Origin: Comamonadaceae bacterium
GTDB taxonomy: Bacteria > Pseudomonadota > Gammaproteobacteria > Burkholderiales > Burkholderiaceae_C
DNA: 42,910 nucleotides
Reading direction: 5' to 3'
Assembly (NCBI GenBank): GCA_009996515.1
Contig: JAACZV010000015.1
Span: 87,735-130,644 of the forward strand
The notes under the pieces were generated by a model. That model made no database searches, was not told where the DNA came from, and worked only from the letters and a program-made list of their open reading frames with translations. Made by a program: the position numbers and the translations under genes. This document shows positions 23,576 to 42,696 of this stretch, piece by piece. The stretch's first letter is position 1; each line of letters begins with the position of its first letter.

Positions 23576-24237
23576 GGCGGAGTGTCGGGAAGAGCGCCCA
23601 GGGCGCGGTGCAGCGGCAGGGCCAGCAACGCGCCCGCCAGCTGCGCGGCGACGAAGCCCGGCACGCTGGCCGGCGCGATGCCGGCGAAACTGTCGCTCAT
23701 CATGCGGCCGATGGCCGCGGCGGGGTTGGCGAAAGACGTGGACGCCGTGAACCAGTAGGCCGCGCCGATGTAGGCCGCCACCAGGCCCGCCGCGCGGCCG
23801 GCCGGCGCGCGCAGCACGACGAGCACCAGGCCCAGGCTCGCGACACCCTCGGCCAGCCACTGGCCGGTGCCGCCGCGCACCCGCGAGGCCCACTGCAGCA
23901 GCGGTAGCTCGAACATCGCATGCGCCAGCCAGGCGCCCAGCACGGCGCCGCCGAGCTGGGCAGCCACATAGGGCGCCAGCCGCGGCCAGGGCAGGCTGCC
24001 GCGCAGCGCCAGGGCCAGCGACACGGCCGGATTGAAGTGGGCGCCGCTGACGGGGCCGAGGATCGCGATGAGTACGAACAGCCCGCCCGCCGTCGCCGCC
24101 GTGTTGGCCAGCAGCGCGATGGCCGCGTTGCCGCCGGCCAGGCGCTCCGCCATCACGCCCGATCCGATGACGACGGCCAGCAGCAGTGCCGTGCCCAGGC
24201 CCTCGGCCAGCAGCGGCCGGCGCAGGGGCCCGTTCAA
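23572..24237 (-). CDS. aqpS: aquaglyceroporin of the arsenic (AqpS-like) type
   Basis: A 221-residue MIP-family channel with six hydrophobic segments. The NPA boxes are GAHFNPAVSL (N69-A71) and TSFANPAAAIGR (N171-A173). The second box lacks the usual arginine right after NPA and is followed by MMSDSFAGIAPASVPGF, the pattern of AqpS-like channels in ars operons. These pass As(III) downhill, so with ArsC they can export reduced arsenate without a pump. The start is inferred as TTG at 24237, sharing bases with the arsI stop (TTGA); no ATG or GTG exists before the first helix. It ends in an ATGA overlap with arsC. Confidence 0.88.
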   Translation of the reverse strand: MNGPLRRPLLAEGLGTALLLAVVIGSGVMAERLAGGNAAIALLANTAATAGGLFVLIAILGPVSGAHFNPAVSLALALRGSLPWPRLAPYVAAQLGGAVLGAWLAHAMFELPLLQWASRVRGGTGQWLAEGVASLGLVLVVLRAPAGRAAGLVAAYIGAAYWFTASTSFANPAAAIGRMMSDSFAGIAPASVPGFVAAQLAGALLALPLHRALGALPDTPP

Positions 24238-24707
24238 CAGCAGCTGCCGGAAGACTTCACGGCGACGGGCTTGCCGCGCGGCGCGTCGCCCGGGCAGCAG
24301 GCCGACGCCGCCTGCGGCGCGCTGGCCTGGCCGGCGCCGAAGGTGGGGATGTCGGCCAGCGTCTGGAACTGCTCCCAGGCGATGCCCTGCGGGTCGGTCA
24401 CCCAGTGCTTCTCGCTCTTGGCATAGCAGCAGGTCGTGGCGCCCTGGTCCAGCAGCGCGACGTCGGCGGCCTGGGCACGGGCCTTCAGCTCGGCCAGCTC
24501 CTCGGGCGTGTCGGCCTGGATGCCGAGATGGTCCACCCCGGCCTTGCCGCCGCGGGTCGAGATGGCGAAGTTGATGCGCGGATCGTCCAGCATCCACTTC
24601 GCGTAGTCGCTCTCCAGCCGCGCGGGCTCGGCGCCGAACAGCTTGGAGTAGAAGACCACGCTGGCCTGCAGGTTGTCGACATGGGCATGCACATGGAATC
24701 GCTTCAT
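24234..24707 (-). CDS. arsI: ArsI/CadI-family VOC protein, probable C-As lyase
   Basis: A 157-residue VOC dioxygenase. ArsI cleaves the carbon-arsenic bond of trivalent organoarsenicals such as methylarsenite using Fe(II) and O2. Putative iron ligands H5, H60 (GVDHLGIQ) and E112 (WEQFQ) and the vicinal thiol pair C93-C94 (TTCCYAKSEKHW) align with those recalled for Bacillus ArsI. The C-terminus has two more vicinal pairs (ACC at 137-138 and SCC at 156-157) that may bind As(III). CadI-type proteins of the same group are linked to cadmium, but the arsR/arsC/aqpS setting favours arsenic. It follows arsR by 12 bp. Confidence 0.88.
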   Translation of the reverse strand: MKRFHVHAHVDNLQASVVFYSKLFGAEPARLESDYAKWMLDDPRINFAISTRGGKAGVDHLGIQADTPEELAELKARAQAADVALLDQGATTCCYAKSEKHWVTDPQGIAWEQFQTLADIPTFGAGQASAPQAASACCPGDAPRGKPVAVKSSGSCC

Positions 24708-24719
24708 GGGATCTCCGGT

Positions 24720-25049
24720 TCAGCAGCAGGAAGAAGAGGGGGTCGCCGCCGGCACCGCGCAGGCGGCGCCCTGGCAGCAGTTCTCGGTCAGATAGCCCAG
24801 CAGCGCGTTCATGCGCGGATAGGCGGCGCGGTAGATGAGGTTGCGGCTGGCGCGCTCCTGCGTCACCAGGCCGGCGTTCACGAGCTCCTTCAGGTGGAAG
24901 GACAGCGTGTTGGCCGGCATGTCCAGGCCCTCGGCCATGGTGCCGGGCGTCAGCCCGGCGTCGCCGGTGACGACCAGCGCGCGGAACACCTTCAGCCGCA
25001 CGGGCTGGGCCAGCGCGGCCAGGGCTTTGATGACATCTGCTTCATCCAT
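24720..25049 (-). CDS. arsR: ArsR-family arsenic-responsive repressor
   Basis: A 109-residue winged-helix repressor of the ArsR/SmtB family, first gene of the operon. The recognition region is TPGTMAEGLDMPANTLSFHLKELVNAGLV. The As(III) site is C-terminal, ENCCQGAAC (C91, C92, C97), as in the Acidithiobacillus-type ArsR rather than the alpha-3 site of R773 ArsR. A terminal C108-C109 pair is additional. It should bind the AT-rich region just upstream (25050-25084) and release it on arsenite or organoarsenical binding. Confidence 0.93.
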   Translation of the reverse strand: MDEADVIKALAALAQPVRLKVFRALVVTGDAGLTPGTMAEGLDMPANTLSFHLKELVNAGLVTQERASRNLIYRAAYPRMNALLGYLTENCCQGAACAVPAATPSSSCC

Positions 25050-25084
25050 ATTTCCAGAATACTCGAATTATTGAGCGCGCGCAA
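25050..25084 (-). promoter_or_regulatory. ars operon promoter and candidate ArsR operator
   Basis: On the minus strand TTGCGC (25084-25079) and TATTCT (25061-25056) are 17 bp apart. The spacer is an AT-rich island with imperfect dyads: AATACTCGAATT at 25059-25070 and, overlapping it, CTCGAATTATTGAG at 25062-25075. ArsR binding between -35 and -10 would block transcription. If this promoter is right, the start point falls on or beside the arsR ATG, giving a nearly leaderless message. Inferred from sequence only. Confidence 0.55.
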
Positions 25085-25163
25085 GCCACCCCGCCACCCG
25101 GGCTTGGGGCGCGACGGATGCCCCCGCCAGCCGGAAGCGGCCCGGCTGTGTTCCACTTCTGCC

Positions 25164-27386
<2,223 letters not shown>

Positions 27387-33571: not shown

Positions 33572-36500
33572 TCAGACCGGGTCCAGCAGCGCGGCGCTGC
33601 GGGCCACCTGCAGCCGCTTCTCGGTGCGCCAGGCCGCCAGGTCGTCCGGCGCCTCGCGCGGCGACAGGCCCATCGCGCGGGTGGCGCCCACATAGCCGTC
33701 GCGGCCCTGTTCCTTGGCCGCGTACAGCGCCGAGTCGGCCAGCGCCAGGCAGGCGCGCCAGTCCCACAGCCGCGGGTGGCGCGGGTCCAGCGGGAAGGCG
33801 CAGAAGCCGATGGACACGGTCACGTGCACGGTCTCGCCGGGGCCGATGTCGAAGGGCCGGTCGCGCACGGCCGCGCAGACGCGCGCGGCCAGCTCGGCGG
33901 CGTCGCGGCGCTCGGTCTCGCGGGCCAGCACCAGCACCTCCTCGCCGCCCCAGCGCACCAGCGAGTCGGTCTCGCGGAAGACGCCGCGCAGCCGCTGGGC
34001 CAGCTGCACCAGCACGGCGTCGCCGGCCGCATGGCCGTGCACGTCGTTGATGCGCTTGAAATGGTCCAGGTCCAGCAGCATCAGCAGCAGGTCGGCATCC
34101 GGGCCCGGGCCGGCGTCGCCTCCCGCGGCCGGCGTCTCGAAGCGGCGCAGGCACAGGCGCAGGTCGTCGTCCAGGCGCAGCTCCAGGTAGCGGCGGTTGC
34201 GCAGGCCGGTCAGCGCGTCGGTGAGGCTGAGCTCGCGCAGCTCGGCCGTGCGCTCGGCCACCAGCGCCTGCAGCTCGACCTCGCGCAGCCGCAGCGAACG
34301 CGTGCGCCAGCGCATCCAGGCCCACAAGGCGGCCAGCGTCAGCAGCCCGCCCGCCACATGGGCCATGGTGGTCTCCCACCAGGCCGGCTCCAGCGTGATG
34401 GGCAGCTGCAGCCGCGCCTGGCCCCACAGGCTGTGATGGGCCGTGGCGCGCACCTCCAGCACATAGCGGCCGGGCTTGAGCGGCCCGAAGCTGGGGCTGC
34501 GGCTGCTCGCATCCACGCGCGTCCAGTCGCCGTCCAGGCCCGCCAGCCGGTACTCGTAGCGCAGCCGCATGGGATCGGCATAGTCCAGCGCCGCGAACTC
34601 GACGGACAGGCTGCGCTGGCCCGGCGGCAGCCGCAGGCCCTCGCGCAGCCTGTGCGGCAGCTCGTGCGGCTGGCCGTTCACGCGCAGGCCGCTGATGACC
34701 AGCGGCGGGTCGGACGTCTGGGCCTTCCAGGCCTCGGGCAGCACGCGCAGCAGGCCGCGGCTGCCGCCGAACAGCAGCGCGCCGCCGGGCAGCTCGGCGC
34801 TGGCGAAGAACCAGAAGCTGCCGAAGTTGGCGCCCTCGGCGCTGCCGAAGCCGTCCAGCCGGTCGGCCGCGGGGTCGTAGACGTAGAGCTGGCTCCAGAT
34901 GCGGCCCTGGCCGTCCTCGTGCAGATTGCCGCCGAACACGCCGTCCAGGCCATGGCGCTCGCTGATGCGCTCGAAGCGGGCGCGGCCCTGGGCATCCCAG
35001 TCCTTCAACCGGTGCAGGCCGCTGACGGGCGTGTCCACCCAAAGCCGGCCGTCGCGGCCCCACAGCATGCCCATGACGATGGGGCTGCCCAGCGTCGCGT
35101 CCGGTGCCTGCGGCACGACCTCCAGCCCGCCCGCGCCGGCCACGCGCTCGCGGAACAGGCCTTGCTGGCCGCCCACCCACAGCCGGCCATCCGGCGCCAC
35201 GCGCAGCGCATAGACGCCGCCCTGCAGCGGCCGGCCGTCCAGCAGCTTCACCCGCTCCAGCGTCGCCGCGCCGCCGGCCAGGCGGAACAGGCCTTCCTGC
35301 ATGCCCAGCCAGGCGCTGCCGTCCGGCCGCAGCAGCAGCTGCTGGGCCCGGCCGCCGTCCAGCACCCAGTCGCGCAGCAGGCGGCCGTCGGCGGCGCGCC
35401 GCTCCAGCCGGCCGGCCGCCGCCATCCACAGGCTGCCGTCGGCCGCCTCGGCCATGGCCTCGACGACGTTGCGCCGCTCGCGCCGCAGCTCGCCCAGCGT
35501 GGCCAGCCCCCGCCCCGGGCGGCCGTCCAGCCGCGCGACATGGCCGCTCTGCGTGGGCGCCAGCACCTCGCCGTTGCTCAGCGCCAGCAGCGCGCGCACG
35601 TCGGGCTCGGCCAGGGGGCCCGTCGGATCGGCGTCGGGACCGCGCACGGCCAGCGCCGGGTGGGACAGGTGGCGCTGCACGCCCAGGCCGTAGCCGCTGA
35701 CCCACATCGCGCCGCTGCGGTCGCGCAGCAGGCCGCTGATGTCGTTGCCGGCCAGGCCCATGATGCGGCGCGGGTCGTGGCGCAGACTGACCTCGACGGC
35801 GCCGCTGGCCGGGTTGACCCAGAACAGGCCCACCTTGGCGCCCACCCAGATCCGGCCGTCGGCGCCTTCGGCCAGCGCATTGATGGGCATGCCCAGCGTC
35901 TGCACCCAGCGCACCCGGCCCCGCTCGACGACGCCCAGGTGGCCGTCCTGCGTGCCCAGCCAGAGGCGGCCGGCGCGATCCTGAGCGAGCGCCGGCACCG
36001 GCATGCCGTCGGCCAGGCCGGGCAGCTCCACGTCGTCCCAGCGGCCATCGACGTAGCGGGCCAGGCCGCGCCAGTGGCCGGCCCAGACGACGCCATCGCC
36101 GCCGATGCGCAGCGCCAGCACGCGGTTCTCGACCTGGCCGCGCCAGCGCAGCTCATGGGTTTGCAGGCGCCCGCCCGCCGGCTCGTAGCGACGCACCCCG
36201 CCGCCCAGCGTGCCGACCCAGACCGCGCCGTCGCCGGCCACCGCCAGCGCACGGATGGCCGGCTGGGGCCCGTCGCCGCCCTGGGCGCCGCCATGGCGCT
36301 CGACGCGGTCGTGTTCGGGGTCGTAGGCCATCAGGCCCTGGAATTCCGTGCCTATCCACATGCGGCCATCGGCCGCCGGCGCCATGGCCCGCACCCAGCC
36401 CAGGCTGCGGCGGGCCGTCGTGTCGCCGGGCAGCTCAATGGGCCGCAGCCGGTAGCCGTCGTAGCGCGTCAGGCCCTGGGTGGTGGAGATCCAGATGAAG

Positions 36501-36661
36501 CCGGCGCCGTCCTGGGCGATGGCGGGCACGGTGTTCTGCGGCACGGCCACGCTGCGGAACTGCACCTCCAGCGCTCCCATGCCACCCGCGGCGCGGGCCG
36601 GGCCCGCCCCGAGCAGCAGCAGCAGCAGCAGGCTCAGCAAGCCTAGAACCAGGGGACGCAT
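33572..36661 (-). CDS. two-component-type beta-propeller diguanylate cyclase
   Basis: A 1029-residue membrane sensor. A signal peptide (about 1-24, with a poly-Leu core) is followed by about 600 periplasmic residues with repeated propeller units (GRMWIGT, GAVWVGT, GRLWLGT, GRIWVGA). Next are a Y_Y_Y domain (LRYEYRLAGLDGDWTRVDA), one transmembrane helix (HVAGGLLTLAALWAWM) and a GGDEF domain. The cyclase has LTDALTGLRNRRYLE, LDLDHFKRINDVHGH and GGEEV at 905-909. The inhibitory I-site RETD lies five residues before it. It should make cyclic di-GMP in response to an external, perhaps carbohydrate, signal, as propeller HTCS proteins do. AGGA lies 8 nt before the ATG at 36661; an ATG at 36670 is the alternative. 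There is no kinase domain. Confidence 0.92.
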   Translation of the reverse strand: MRPLVLGLLSLLLLLLLGAGPARAAGGMGALEVQFRSVAVPQNTVPAIAQDGAGFIWISTTQGLTRYDGYRLRPIELPGDTTARRSLGWVRAMAPAADGRMWIGTEFQGLMAYDPEHDRVERHGGAQGGDGPQPAIRALAVAGDGAVWVGTLGGGVRRYEPAGGRLQTHELRWRGQVENRVLALRIGGDGVVWAGHWRGLARYVDGRWDDVELPGLADGMPVPALAQDRAGRLWLGTQDGHLGVVERGRVRWVQTLGMPINALAEGADGRIWVGAKVGLFWVNPASGAVEVSLRHDPRRIMGLAGNDISGLLRDRSGAMWVSGYGLGVQRHLSHPALAVRGPDADPTGPLAEPDVRALLALSNGEVLAPTQSGHVARLDGRPGRGLATLGELRRERRNVVEAMAEAADGSLWMAAAGRLERRAADGRLLRDWVLDGGRAQQLLLRPDGSAWLGMQEGLFRLAGGAATLERVKLLDGRPLQGGVYALRVAPDGRLWVGGQQGLFRERVAGAGGLEVVPQAPDATLGSPIVMGMLWGRDGRLWVDTPVSGLHRLKDWDAQGRARFERISERHGLDGVFGGNLHEDGQGRIWSQLYVYDPAADRLDGFGSAEGANFGSFWFFASAELPGGALLFGGSRGLLRVLPEAWKAQTSDPPLVISGLRVNGQPHELPHRLREGLRLPPGQRSLSVEFAALDYADPMRLRYEYRLAGLDGDWTRVDASSRSPSFGPLKPGRYVLEVRATAHHSLWGQARLQLPITLEPAWWETTMAHVAGGLLTLAALWAWMRWRTRSLRLREVELQALVAERTAELRELSLTDALTGLRNRRYLELRLDDDLRLCLRRFETPAAGGDAGPGPDADLLLMLLDLDHFKRINDVHGHAAGDAVLVQLAQRLRGVFRETDSLVRWGGEEVLVLARETERRDAAELAARVCAAVRDRPFDIGPGETVHVTVSIGFCAFPLDPRHPRLWDWRACLALADSALYAAKEQGRDGYVGATRAMGLSPREAPDDLAAWRTEKRLQVARSAALLDPV

Positions 36662-36767
36662 GAAGAGCATCCTAAGGGCGGCCGATGACAGCCGGCGCGG
36701 CCCCGCCGACGCCGGGCCGTCACGCGGCCAACATGTCACGCCGCCGGCGTTGCGGATCCGCCATCAA

Positions 36768-36826: not shown

Positions 36827-37504
<678 letters not shown>

Positions 37505-37506
37505 GG

Positions 37507-38769
37507 TCACTGGAGGTCGAGGACGGAAGCGCCGGCCAGGGCGCGGTAGGGAGAGACGACGACCTGCTCGCCAGGCCGCAGGCCGCCCAGGACTTCGATG
37601 ACGCCGTCGGCGCGGCGGCCCAGCTGCAGCGGGCGGCGCCGGGCATGGCGGCCGTCGGCGTCCAGCACGAAGGCCCAGGCGCCGCCGGTGTCGGCATAGA
37701 AGCCGGCGTCGGGCAGCAGCAGCGCCCGCGTGGCCTGGCCCAGCGTGAGACGCACGTCCAGGCCCTGGCCCACCTGCAGCGGCGGCGGATCGGCGTCGAA
37801 CGTCAGCTCGACGCCGAAGCGCCCGTCCTTGACCTGCGGGTCGATGCGGGCGACATGCAGCGCGTGGTCGCGGCCGGCATGCGTCAGCGCGCCTGGCAGG
37901 CCTTCGCGCACGCGGCCGAGGTGGAACTCGTCCAGCCGCAGCTCCAGCTTGAAGCGGCCCGGGCTGTCCAGCCGCGCGATGCGCATGCCGCTGCGCAGGC
38001 TTTCGCCGACCTGCAGCGTCAGCCCGGTCACGCGGCCGGCCACCGGCGCGCGCACGGCCAGCCCTGCGCTGGCGGCGCGCATCGCGTCCAGCCGCCGGTT
38101 GAGGTCGGCCACGGCGCGCTGCATGGCCTGGACGGACTGCTCGCGCACCGCCAGCTCCTCGCGGCCGTCGGCCTGCTGCTGCGTGAACAGACGCTCGGCC
38201 AGGGCCAGCTTGTCGGCCGAGTCCTCCAGCGCCGAAGGGGACAGGAAACCCGTAGCCGCCAGCTCGCGGTTGCGCTGATGCCCCCGGCGCACCCGCTCCA
38301 GCTCGTACTGCGCCTCGGTCAGCGTGCGGCGCTGCAGCGCCTGCGCCTGCATCCAGGCGGCACGCAGCGTCGAGAAGTTGGCGAGCTGCTGGGCCGCCTC
38401 GCTGGAGCGCGCCATCAGCTCCTGGGCGCGCTGGCTGCTGTTCAGCACGACCAGCAGCTGGCCGGCCTCGACGCGTTCACCGTCTCTCACCAGCACCTGC
38501 TCGACGCGGCCGTCCTCGGCCGCATCCAGCAGCACGGACTGCAGCGGCTGCGCCGTCGCGCGGCCCACCACCACGTCGCGGAAGGCACCGGCCTGGGCCG
38601 CAGCGATCTCCACCTCGGCTCGCGGCACCGGCACGCCGCGCGGCCAGTGGCGCGCGATCAGGGCCGCCGTCACGACGGCCGCCGCGAGGACCGACACGAC
38701 GATCCAGCGCCGCGACGGCGGTGCCACGCGCCTATCCATCACGGCGCCGGAACTGAGCACGGCACTCAT
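37507..38769 (-). CDS. HlyD/MacA-like periplasmic adaptor
   Basis: A 420-residue membrane-fusion protein linking the permease to an outer-membrane channel. A single N-terminal anchor (about 22-40) is followed by a lipoyl half ([23 protein letters not shown]). A coiled-coil hairpin (about 110-225) and the second lipoyl half ([22 protein letters not shown]) come next, with a beta-barrel and membrane-proximal domain ([21 protein letters not shown]) at the end. It has no cysteine lipobox. The ATG overlaps the permease stop (ATGA). No TolC-like gene is in the window, so the outer-membrane partner is elsewhere. Confidence 0.92.
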
Positions 38770-41243
38770 CCGGTCAGGGCCCGCAGCGGCCGCAGCGCCA
38801 GCGCCGCGCGCAGGTGGCGGGCCACGGCCAGCGTCGTCACGCCGGCCAGCAGCGCCACGACCGCCAGCAGCACCCACAGCGAGTAGGGCCCCACCGGCGC
38901 GCGCTCGACGAAGTCCGCCAGATAGCGCTGCGACAGCCAGGCGGCCCAGGGCAGGGCCAGCGCGCAGGCCACCGCCAGCACGCCGGCGAACTCCTGCGCA
39001 AGCAGGCCCGCCACGGCGCCCGTGCCGGCACCATGCAGCTTGCGCAGCACGATCTCGCGCTCGCGCCGGCGCAGCGTGTAGGCCGCCAGCGCGTAGATGC
39101 CCACGGCGGCCAGGCCCAGCGCCAGCAGGCCGGCGACGCCGACAAGCCGGCCCAGCCGTGCGTCGTCGGCCACGTTCTGCAGCAGCATGTCGCGCGCCGG
39201 CAAGGCTTGCACCTGGGCGTCGGGGAAGGTCTCGCTGACCAGGGCCGACAGCTTGGCGCGCGTGGCCTGCGGGTCGCGGCTGTGCACGCCCAGGGCGCCC
39301 GCGCCGCGCTCCGCCACCGGCGTGATCGCATGCGGCTGCGGCGGGCTGCGCGGGCCTTCCAGCCGGATGTCGTCGATGACGGCCACCACGGTGGCCGGCT
39401 TGCCGTCGCGGAAGTTGGGCGCCACGCCCAGCACCTGGCCCACGGCCGCCTCGGGGCTGGCCAGGCCCAGCGCGCGCACGGCGCTGCGGTCCAGCACGAT
39501 GGCGTTGCGCGCGCCCTCGGCCACATGGTCGGCCGACAGCCGGCCGGCGATGACGCGCATGCCGTAGGTCTGCAGATAGCCGGGCGTGAAGTCCACGCCG
39601 GTGCGCAGGTTGATCGGCCGGCCGCCGGGGCCGCTGAACTCCGAGTACCAGCTGGAGAAGTCGCGCCCGGGCACGTCGTCGGCGGCGGCCGCGGCGATGA
39701 CCTCGGGCCAGCCGCGCACGCGCTCCAGCAGCGCGGTCGTCTGCGCCGGCTGCGCCTCCCAGGGCAGGTCCACGGCGACGCGGTCGCGCAGCTCGAAACC
39801 CCGTGGCAACTCGCCCGCATGCTCGGCCTGCCACAGCACCGTCAGCGCCAGCGACGCGAACAACGCGGCGGCGCCGAACTGCAGCGTCGTCATCAGCCGG
39901 CGCAGCCAGCGGCTGGCGGCGCCCTCGCTGTGGCTGCGCCCGGCCAGCGACTCGGCCGGCCGCACGCGCAGCGCGATGGCGCTCAGCGGCAGCGCGCTGA
40001 GGGCGGCGATGAGCACGCACAGCAGCCCGGTCAAGGCCAGCATGCCGGCGCCCAGCACCGGCGCATGGAACTGGCGCTGCATCAGCAGCTGGGCCAGCGG
40101 CGTGGCCCACCAGGCCAGCAGCAGGCCCAGCGCGCCGGCCAGGCCCGCGACCACCAGCGCCTCGGCGAAGAACTGCAGGACCAGCTGCCGCACGCCCGCG
40201 CCCAGCGACTTGCGCAGGCCGATCTCGCGCTGGCGGCGCAGCGTGCGCACGCTCCACAGGTTGACGAAGTTGATGACGGCCAGCGCCAGCACGACGGCCG
40301 CCGCCGCCGCGAGGCTGCCCAGCTGCAGGCGGCGCTTGGGGCTGCCGGCGCCGTGCAGGCCGGCGTCGGCCACCGGCAGTGCGCGCACATAGGCGGCCTT
40401 GCCGCCGCCCTTCAGGAAGTCGGCCGGGAAGCCCGGCGGCAACGGCTGCTGGTCCACCAGCCGCTGCGCCAGCGCGCCCAGCGGCGCGGCCGCGGCCGCC
40501 GGCTGCAGGCGGGCGAACAGCCGGCCGGAGGCCATGTACCAGCTGTCCGAGCGCGCCAGATAGGCCTTGGCGGCCGGCGCGTGGAAGCCGGCGATGGCGT
40601 CGAAGACCAGCGTGGCGTTCTGGTTGGGCGTGGGCAGCACGGCCTTCACGGTCAGCGTGAACTGCATGGCCGGCGCGCGGCCCTCGGGGTCGGGAGGCAG
40701 CGCGATGGTGAACGTGCGGCCCACCGCCTGCGTGGTGCCGAACAGCTTTTCCGCGCTCTGCGCCGTCAGCGCGACGGCCTCGGGCGACGCCAGCGCCGCG
40801 GCCAGGTCGCCGGCCAGCGGCCGCAGGCCGAACAAGGCCTGAATGTCGGCATCGGCCAGCGCGATGACCAGACGGGTGCTGCGTGACCGGCCCTGCGCCG
40901 CGGCCGCGCGTGCCGGCAGCGAGGTGTAGAGCACCCGGCTCATGGCCTCGACCGGCGCGCCGTTGGCACGCAGCGCGGCCGCCAGCGGCACCGCGGGCAC
41001 GCCGTCGAACCAGTCGGAGGTGCTGCCGCCGGGGCCGCGCACCCGCCATTCGAAGCGGACCAGACGGTCGGGCTCGGGCAGCTCCGCGTCGGGCCATAGC
41101 AAGTCCTGCAGGAAGCTGGCCGTCAGCAGCGTCAGCGCCAGGCCCAGCGCCAGGCCGGCGATGACGAGGGCGGCCGGGCCGGGCTCGGCGCGCAGCTGGC
41201 GCCAGGCGCCGCGCCAGGTGGTGGGGGAGGGAAACAGGCTCAT
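38766..41243 (-). CDS. ABC transporter permease with two MacB/FtsX units
   Basis: An 825-residue inner-membrane protein. A first helix (about 26-46) precedes a large periplasmic MacB_PCD-like domain. FtsX-type helices with VNLWSVRTLRRQREIGLRKSLGAG follow, then a second extracytoplasmic domain and a second FtsX block near the C-terminus (YALAAYTLRRREREIVLRKLHGAG). The duplicated EIGLRK/EIVLRK cytoplasmic loops contact the ATPase. It is the first gene of the operon, likely exporting peptides, lipids or antibiotics in a mechanotransmission mode. Substrate is unknown. The predicted sigma-54 start point lies almost on the ATG at 41243. Confidence 0.9.
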   Translation of the reverse strand: MSLFPSPTTWRGAWRQLRAEPGPAALVIAGLALGLALTLLTASFLQDLLWPDAELPEPDRLVRFEWRVRGPGGSTSDWFDGVPAVPLAAALRANGAPVEAMSRVLYTSLPARAAAAQGRSRSTRLVIALADADIQALFGLRPLAGDLAAALASPEAVALTAQSAEKLFGTTQAVGRTFTIALPPDPEGRAPAMQFTLTVKAVLPTPNQNATLVFDAIAGFHAPAAKAYLARSDSWYMASGRLFARLQPAAAAAPLGALAQRLVDQQPLPPGFPADFLKGGGKAAYVRALPVADAGLHGAGSPKRRLQLGSLAAAAAVVLALAVINFVNLWSVRTLRRQREIGLRKSLGAGVRQLVLQFFAEALVVAGLAGALGLLLAWWATPLAQLLMQRQFHAPVLGAGMLALTGLLCVLIAALSALPLSAIALRVRPAESLAGRSHSEGAASRWLRRLMTTLQFGAAALFASLALTVLWQAEHAGELPRGFELRDRVAVDLPWEAQPAQTTALLERVRGWPEVIAAAAADDVPGRDFSSWYSEFSGPGGRPINLRTGVDFTPGYLQTYGMRVIAGRLSADHVAEGARNAIVLDRSAVRALGLASPEAAVGQVLGVAPNFRDGKPATVVAVIDDIRLEGPRSPPQPHAITPVAERGAGALGVHSRDPQATRAKLSALVSETFPDAQVQALPARDMLLQNVADDARLGRLVGVAGLLALGLAAVGIYALAAYTLRRREREIVLRKLHGAGTGAVAGLLAQEFAGVLAVACALALPWAAWLSQRYLADFVERAPVGPYSLWVLLAVVALLAGVTTLAVARHLRAALALRPLRALTG

Positions 41244-41254
41244 GGGCCGGCTTC

Positions 41255-41270
41255 TGCAAGAGCCGGGCCA
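41255..41270 (-). promoter_or_regulatory. sigma-54 promoter facing the ABC exporter operon
   Basis: The minus strand reads TGGCCCGGCTCTTGCA from 41270 to 41255. The consensus TGGCACG-N4-TTGC(A/T) is matched at all positions except one (C for A), with correct spacing between the -24 GG and the -12 GC. It faces the permease gene, and the divergent gene encodes an NtrC-family activator, which is what a sigma-54 promoter needs. Transcription would begin near 41244, one base before the ATG. Confidence 0.75.
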
Positions 41271-41312
41271 GCGCCGGCGCCCGGGGAGACGGGCCCGGAA
41301 ACGGCGGCCGGC

Positions 41313-41351
41313 TGTCCGCCGGCGAACACCCGCACTGTCCGCTTCCGGACA
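41313..41351. promoter_or_regulatory. two tandem 16-bp dyads, candidate enhancer sites for the NtrC-type regulator
   Basis: TGTCCG-CTTC-CGGACA (41336-41351) is a perfect 6+6 inverted repeat. TGTCCG-CCGG-CGAACA (41313-41328) is the same site with one mismatch. Their centres are 23 bp apart, about two helical turns, at roughly 76 and 99 bp upstream of the predicted sigma-54 start point. This is the usual distance for NtrC-family upstream activating sequences. Binding by the adjacent regulator is inferred. Confidence 0.7.
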
Positions 41352-41397
41352 CCGCCTTGCCGTGGCCGACGGGCGCCGCTTAGAGTCGCGCCCGCCC

Positions 41398-42685
<1,288 letters not shown>

Positions 42686-42696
<11 letters not shown>

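Follow-up and report, generated by a model that had tools for sequence, protein, structure and literature searches.

What decides when a Comamonadaceae bacterium makes the exporter whose genes lie at the end of contig C15 (JAACZV010000015.1) of its 4.58-Mb genome? The question was pursued in a stretch of 42,910 nucleotides, the window, which runs to this contig end and in which a permease gene and a regulator gene diverge from a common gap. Between the permease ATG at 41243 on the minus strand and the regulator ATG at 41398 on the plus strand, the gap comprises 154 bp (41244–41397). The initial annotation, made from the sequence alone, had placed in it a -24/-12 element one mismatch off consensus and aimed at the permease, together with two tandem TGTCCG-N4-CG(G/A)ACA dyads 23 bp apart (41313–41351). 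It had also predicted a chain leading from kinase to regulator, tandem dyads, sigma-54 promoter and exporter. The coordinates of the element and of the dyads are correct, and the chain is supported by site conservation and helical phase. The gap is very probably the control region of an exporter operon that is driven by a two-component system and read from a sigma-54 promoter. The closest named relative in a genome-contig scan is Pelomonas sp. Root405, with a regulator that is 87% identical.

A predicted promoter and two dyads in the gap

Read on the minus strand from 41270 to 41255, TGGCCCGGCTCTTGCA agrees with the sigma-54 promoter consensus TGGCACG-N4-TTGC at 10 of 11 positions, and the dyad centres lie 76 and 99 bp upstream of the predicted permease transcription start. 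The pattern TGTNCG-N4-CGNACA occurs at seven places in the genome, against one for a backwards control pattern, and the locus holds the sole tandem pair among the seven. The remaining five occur singly, every one of them overlapping a long open frame (L114–L117 and L120), in a genome whose G+C content leaves frame lists with little meaning. For TGGCNCG-N4-TTGC, 18 places were counted versus five for the control. A gene with a Sigma54_DBD domain is also present in the genome.

Conservation was followed within the genus by searching 20 genomes, the bacterium's own included. The regulator was found in 13 of them, and the addition of Root405 gave 14 gap regions, 13 of them distinct, since those of L011 and L105 are identical. 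Across these 13, the half-sites of dyad 2 hold 10 invariant columns out of 12 and those of dyad 1 hold 8 out of 12, the -24/-12 element has 9 of 16, and the putative -35 and -10 boxes of the regulator have 4 and 5 of 6, compared with 11 of the 94 gap columns outside the marked features. All 13 regions carry the dyad pair at 23-bp spacing with at most two mismatches per dyad, and the -24/-12 element is found in L096 and L097 as well. Conservation in orthologous regions had been set in advance as a test of the prediction; both the dyads and the -24/-12 element are conserved in the 13 genus regions, and they recur in part of the homologues beyond the genus. The regulator boxes are read from this conservation because a promoter scan of 41150–41450 did not report them. 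That scan gave no sigma-70-type promoter on either strand, the exporter strand included, and its shuffles gave none as well, so it has little power in such a G+C-rich stretch. The conserved TAGAGT box ends 11 nt upstream of the regulator ATG, and the regulator mRNA may also be near-leaderless.

A wider set, made up of the 80 best loci among the 581 of the genome-contig scan, spans betaproteobacteria, sphingomonads, Bacteroidota and single members of other phyla. In 60 of the 80, an exporter component is divergent to the regulator; this count includes any component because the adaptor profile drifted into permeases, and some of the other 20 loci are short or have unscanned divergent open reading frames (ORFs), such as one of 819 aa in L053. 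The sites were sought in 420-bp upstream regions of 59 exporter-linked loci (L011 left out) and in 100 shuffles. A dyad perfect at its ten fixed positions was present in 24 of the 59 (shuffle mean 0.02), one with at most one mismatch in 35 (shuffle mean 0.56), and a tandem pair in 23 of these homologues outside the genus, with none in the 100 shuffles. The 20 loci without a detected exporter gave 1, 4 and 2 by the same measures, the tandem pair again being absent from 100 shuffles. Tandem pairs outside Pseudomonadota include those of L027 and L059 (Pontibacter, Bacteroidota), L089 (Acidobacteria) and L073 (Aminicenantes). A -24/-12 score of at least 0.88 was reached on the exporter strand in 17 of the 59 loci and on the regulator strand in one, the 99% quantile of mononucleotide shuffles being 0.81. 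By title, 15 of the 17 belong to Pseudomonadota; the other two are L062 and L089. Comparable predicted switches recur in distantly related bacteria.

Single loci show variants of this arrangement. L079 has three tandem dyads of the TGTTCG/TGTACG type instead of two, next to a -24/-12 element at 11/11. In L084, two dyad clusters are found, one by the exporter promoter and one at -55/-33 of the regulator start, which suggests separate control of both genes. L027 and L059 have in common TGGCA(C/T)AGCGCTTGGC on the exporter strand, approximately 235–250 bp upstream of the regulator. It is a -24-like box with TTGG replacing TTGC, and it may be a lineage-specific form of the sigma-54 promoter.

The spacing between the dyads and the promoter provides a further line of evidence. 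In most loci with both elements, the centre of the promoter-proximal dyad lies approximately 64, 75, 85 or 97 bp from the predicted start, and the 13 betaproteobacterial loci among them keep a strong phase at 10.5 bp (R 0.87 and 0.90). The test, which covered 19 loci, used a uniform null and overstates significance where spacing is inherited, as do the P values obtained directly from the regions of a second family. This second family was therefore used to count spacing changes on a tree, because shared spacing is partly inheritance. Its regulator is present in 105 of 392 genomes, and 103 upstream regions were obtained, two matches lying too near a contig end. This family overlaps the first set: the L160 regulator is identical to that of L013, and further loci of the first set may be members. 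Promoter and tandem dyads occur together in 93 of the 103 regions, with the promoter at 11/11 in 60 of the 93; six regions lack a promoter of at least 9/11 and four lack the pair. The tree was built from the exporter-side flank (330 bp), and unit-cost parsimony with an uncertain root state gave 42 spacing changes, of which 22 were of at least 4 bp. Nineteen of these 22 lie within 1.5 bp of whole turns and two lie near mid-turn (binomial P 2.7e-8), so that half-turn changes are rare in this family. The preference for near-whole turns is evolutionary evidence that fits an enhancer facing sigma-54 polymerase on one helix face, which predicts such changes. Together, the genome counts, the shuffles and the conservation in the genus and the second family rule out a chance match of promoter and dyads.

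Table 1. Genes and predicted control elements at the locus (window coordinates).
Feature	Position	Strand	Basis
-24/-12 sigma-54-type promoter element TGGCCCGGCTCTTGCA, reads into permease	41255–41270	-	10/11 consensus; genus conservation
Dyad 1, closer to sigma-54 promoter, TGTCCGCCGGCGAACA	41313–41328	.	only tandem pair; conserved
Dyad 2, closer to regulator, TGTCCGCTTCCGGACA	41336–41351	.	only tandem pair; conserved
Probable sigma-70-type promoter of regulator: TTGCCG (41357–41362), 18 bp, TAGAGT (41381–41386)	41357–41386	+	conservation
Permease start codon, 12 nt past -12 element, predicted +2	41241–41243	-	11–14 nt in family rows
Regulator of NtrC-type architecture (receiver, sigma-54 AAA+, Fis-type HTH)	41398–42696	+	Pfam; loop GSFTDA at 42025–42042
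Probable histidine kinase, first 64 aa	42719–42910	+	start; whole kinases in relatives
Permease, 825 aa, two MacB_PCD-FtsX units in one chain	38766–41243	-	Pfam, NCBIfam, model, PDB profiles, Foldseek
HlyD/RND_mfp-type periplasmic adaptor	37507–38769	-	Pfam, NCBIfam
ABC ATPase; top NCBIfam scores DarD, MacB and FtsE, all under cut-off	36827–37510	-	

A proposed path from membrane kinase to exporter

The gene identities, the conserved sites, their helical phase and the kinase topology in relatives are read from sequence, and they allow the following course of events to be proposed. The regulator's own sigma-70-type promoter would provide a basal level of the protein, which the membrane kinase would phosphorylate. 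The regulator would then bind both dyads on one helix face and loop to the sigma-54 polymerase waiting at the -24/-12 element, where the promoter would be opened via ATP hydrolysis through the GSFTDA loop. Transcribed as an operon, the permease, adaptor and ATPase would then be made and, with a TolC-type duct from elsewhere, would assemble into a tripartite pump. Synthesis of the regulator is probably also adjusted by dyad binding, because dyad 2 ends 5 bp before the regulator -35 box.

The permease gene would begin almost at its own transcription start. In all 16 family rows (14 from the same genus, two of them identical, plus L096 and L097, giving 15 distinct rows), the distance from the C of TTGC to the permease ATG is 11–14 nt. 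If transcription starts 12 nt past that C, the ATG falls at approximately +1 to +4, and the permease mRNA would therefore be near-leaderless. In L106, L108, L109 and L111 an alternative in-frame start falls within the promoter element itself; those farther downstream are a TTG at 19 nt in L104 and codons at least 52 nt away elsewhere. The permease may start internally, although the intervening residues are conserved. Near-leaderless starts are not universal: in L012, approximately 66 nt separate the element from the first gene. Leaderless mRNAs themselves are already known (PMC3616915).

The exporter was initially described as MacAB-like, with the order permease, adaptor, ATPase. Domains and order bear this out, but the ATPase is encoded by a separate gene and the permease is duplicated, so that the permease is not MacB proper, in which the ATPase is fused to a 4-helix permease. 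The chain consists of two MacB_PCD-FtsX units (mean pLDDT of the model 86.7, from 39 sequences), and its PDB profile matches are MacB, LolC/E and FtsX. Foldseek placed E. coli YbbAP first (whole-chain TM-score 0.42), followed by MacB, LolCDE, HrtBA and, lower, BceB; single domains fit better. With FtsX and MacB_PCD domains and a related fold, the permease belongs to the FtsX/MacB (type VII) ABC superfamily. MacAB, DarBCD and ADOP permeases share these domains and have a related adaptor and ATPase, and the exporter proteins fall below the NCBIfam cut-offs for MacB, MacA, DarB, DarC, DarD and ADOP. The permease is the first exporter gene in the genus, whereas the adaptor or the ATPase comes first in most other loci with matches, some Bacteroidota being permease-first. 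The outer-membrane duct was sought in the loci with a single TolC-like ORF as seed, an insensitive search that returned 2 of 2229 ORFs including the seed.

The kinase predicted to follow the regulator is cut to 64 residues in the window because the contig ends there; in relatives it is whole, and both of the relatives' kinases that were scanned contain HATPase_c, the histidine-kinase ATPase domain. A kinase adjoins the regulator in 83 of 89 loci, L001 being cut and L049, L053, L064, L065 and L084 having none at threshold. A simple hydropathy estimate found two N-terminal hydrophobic cores of 17 residues in all 83, separated by 3–15 residues (median 7), with a third hydrophobic segment within 100 residues in five; at a stricter cut-off, seven show one core only near the start. 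By eye, the 64 residues in the window resemble this two-core start. Such a short connection between the helices cannot accommodate a sensor domain on the outside, and so the permease may be the sensor.

There is close to an even chance that, instead, the kinase itself senses a ligand, either through its helices in the membrane or through its cytoplasmic portion, and that the exporter is a mere output, an arrangement compatible with the promoter as read here. A sub-threshold PAS match in one of the two kinases scanned is in its favour, as is the control of MacAB by PhoPQ in E. coli and Salmonella, which the excerpts of PMC5985334 describe. The near-absence of a loop in 83 of 83 relatives, like that in Bce and Vfm kinases, speaks against it without being decisive.

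The Bce regulator is of the OmpR type. BceRS-BceAB of Firmicutes combines an ABC permease of the FtsX superfamily with a kinase without a sensing domain, in the portions of PMC10314905 and PMC5985334 that describe it. The described topology of BceS is that of the relatives' kinases, all 83 of which lack an outside sensor domain, and the Foldseek matches of the window permease extend to BceB. BceAB differs in its ten-helix permease with one large outside domain, whereas the locus has a sigma-54-type regulator, an HlyD adaptor and a duplicated permease. We put forward tentatively, as somewhat short of an even chance, that the locus represents a widespread Gram-negative counterpart of Bce. Its FtsX/MacB-type exporter would be the sensor and would signal the state of transport to a kinase without a sensor domain, which would drive a sigma-54 activator with D in its loop on phased tandem TGTNCG-N4-CGNACA sites; the D would be a working contact family-wide, and the sigma-54 mRNA would be near-leaderless in the genus. 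If so, the pump would call up its own production whenever more of it is needed. The locus and its relatives offer a defined Gram-negative system for asking whether transporters of the MacB type can act as co-sensors.

The regulator and its contact loop

The divergent gene had been called a sigma-54 activator, and its product has that architecture: PF00072, PF00158 and PF02954 score above their cut-offs, giving the receiver, sigma-54 AAA+ and Fis-type helix-turn-helix (HTH) domains of the NtrC type. Its loop is the variant GSFTDA, in place of the GAFTGA of proven sigma-54 activators. The window regulator is thus classed by architecture, and its sigma-54 contact through GSFTDA is a candidate one. 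Among 88 homologues (L011–L090 and L141–L148), the loop reads GAFTDA in 54, GSFTDA in 27, GAYTDA in 3, GAFTGA in 3 and GSFTGA in 1. The NCBIfam model TIGR02915 (PEP-CTERM-box response regulator) gave 335.8 bits, under its cut-off of 502.6. Binding of c-di-GMP, reported for VfmH, was considered and rejected, since in a crude mapping by fixed offset from the loop only the first of the VfmH residues Arg 195, 279 and 344 is retained, the others being P and S.

It could be supposed that a regulator with this loop dispenses with sigma-54 and activates a sigma-70-type promoter of the exporter. Position 5 of the loop is D, not G, in the window protein and in 84 of the 88 homologues; GAFTGA is called invariant and essential in the excerpts of PMC12316311, and a pull-down with Dickeya VfmH, whose loop is GAFTDA, found no sigma-54 (PMC10714721, in part). 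Whether the change from G to D accounts for that result is stated there as not known. The proposal is nevertheless improbable: the loop reads G(A/S)FTDA in each of the 17 loci whose exporter-strand -24/-12 element is strong, and a survey of Desulfovibrio lists GAFTDA among the loop variants expected to keep activity (PMC4641369, in part). The promoter scan, with the little power noted above, offered no exporter-strand sigma-70-type promoter to such a regulator. Since regulators of this kind adjoin near-consensus sigma-54 promoters in many genomes, the use of sigma-54 after a change from G to D, raised in PMC10714721, is directly testable. Most improbable is that the dyads act solely on the regulator's sigma-70 promoter, with an incidental -24/-12 match: the conserved TTGCCG box does begin just after dyad 2, but the -24/-12 element is itself conserved and the dyads hold helical phase to it in the second family.

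Beside the D in the loop and the VfmH pull-down, other observations weigh against a sigma-54-driven exporter operon. One of the single genome sites lies upstream of a paralogous regulator (L004, contig C14), whose 420 bp of upstream DNA contain a perfect single site and another with one mismatch; this concerns only one of six paralogues checked. Apart from the 13 betaproteobacterial loci, the 6 others tested show no significant helical phase. In 24 of the 59 exporter-linked homologues, the 420 bp searched contain no dyad to within one mismatch, and 42 of the 59, mostly Bacteroidota by title, score under 0.88 for an exporter-strand -24/-12 element. These missing sites and promoters are a real limit on general claims. 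The 28 matches to TolC-type outer-membrane duct domains all lie elsewhere in the genome, none of them on C15, a contig that ends here.

Related systems and neighbouring genes

The closest published parallel is the Vfm system of Dickeya (VfmG, VfmH and VfmI), likened here by its published description. VfmH is a receiver-AAA+-Fis regulator (PMC10714721, in part), VfmI has the two-helix topology of the relatives' kinases, and the ABC permease VfmG is discussed as a co-sensor in the excerpts of PMC9306890. Unlike the locus, Vfm belongs, by these partial descriptions, to a 26-gene signal-making cluster and acts on VfmE and virulence genes. No signal synthesis is apparent in the eight neighbouring ORFs of the window that were scanned, two of them without a match, the other side of the locus being cut off. 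The excerpted descriptions of Vfm contain neither a sigma-54 promoter nor dyads. No locus titled Dickeya is among the named loci of the genome-contig scan, and none was fetched by name.

A 2025 survey reports predicted sigma-54 promoters enriched at COG0577 FtsX-type permeases, which it terms the first evidence there (PMC12316311, in part). It covers gamma-Proteobacteria, Opitutia and Bacteroidia, and this regulator, the dyads and the kinase do not occur in the excerpted text. It would drop most of this regulator family because its activators were filtered for GAFTGA. The present locus supplies a candidate activator, sites and kinase for such promoters. GlrR (QseF) of E. coli and Proteus is likewise a sigma-54-type response regulator, with the site TGTC-N10-GACA (PMC8745638, in part); the site at the locus is TGTC-N8-GACA with an inner CG...CG, and the NCBIfam GlrR model gave 285.6 bits against a cut-off of 763. 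No description of these dyads was found in the open-access literature, in a search that was not made by dyad letters and lay outside subscription papers.

Downstream of the ATPase, a Reg_prop/Y_Y_Y/GGDEF protein is encoded at 33572–36739 on the minus strand. A match to the GGDEF protein lies downstream in six of eight relatives examined (L141–L148), at varying distance, and the protein might link c-di-GMP with the exporter. Farther away, at 24186–27386 on the plus strand, the window encodes an RNA helicase of the SUV3 type with 1066 aa, a member of a family known best from mitochondria.

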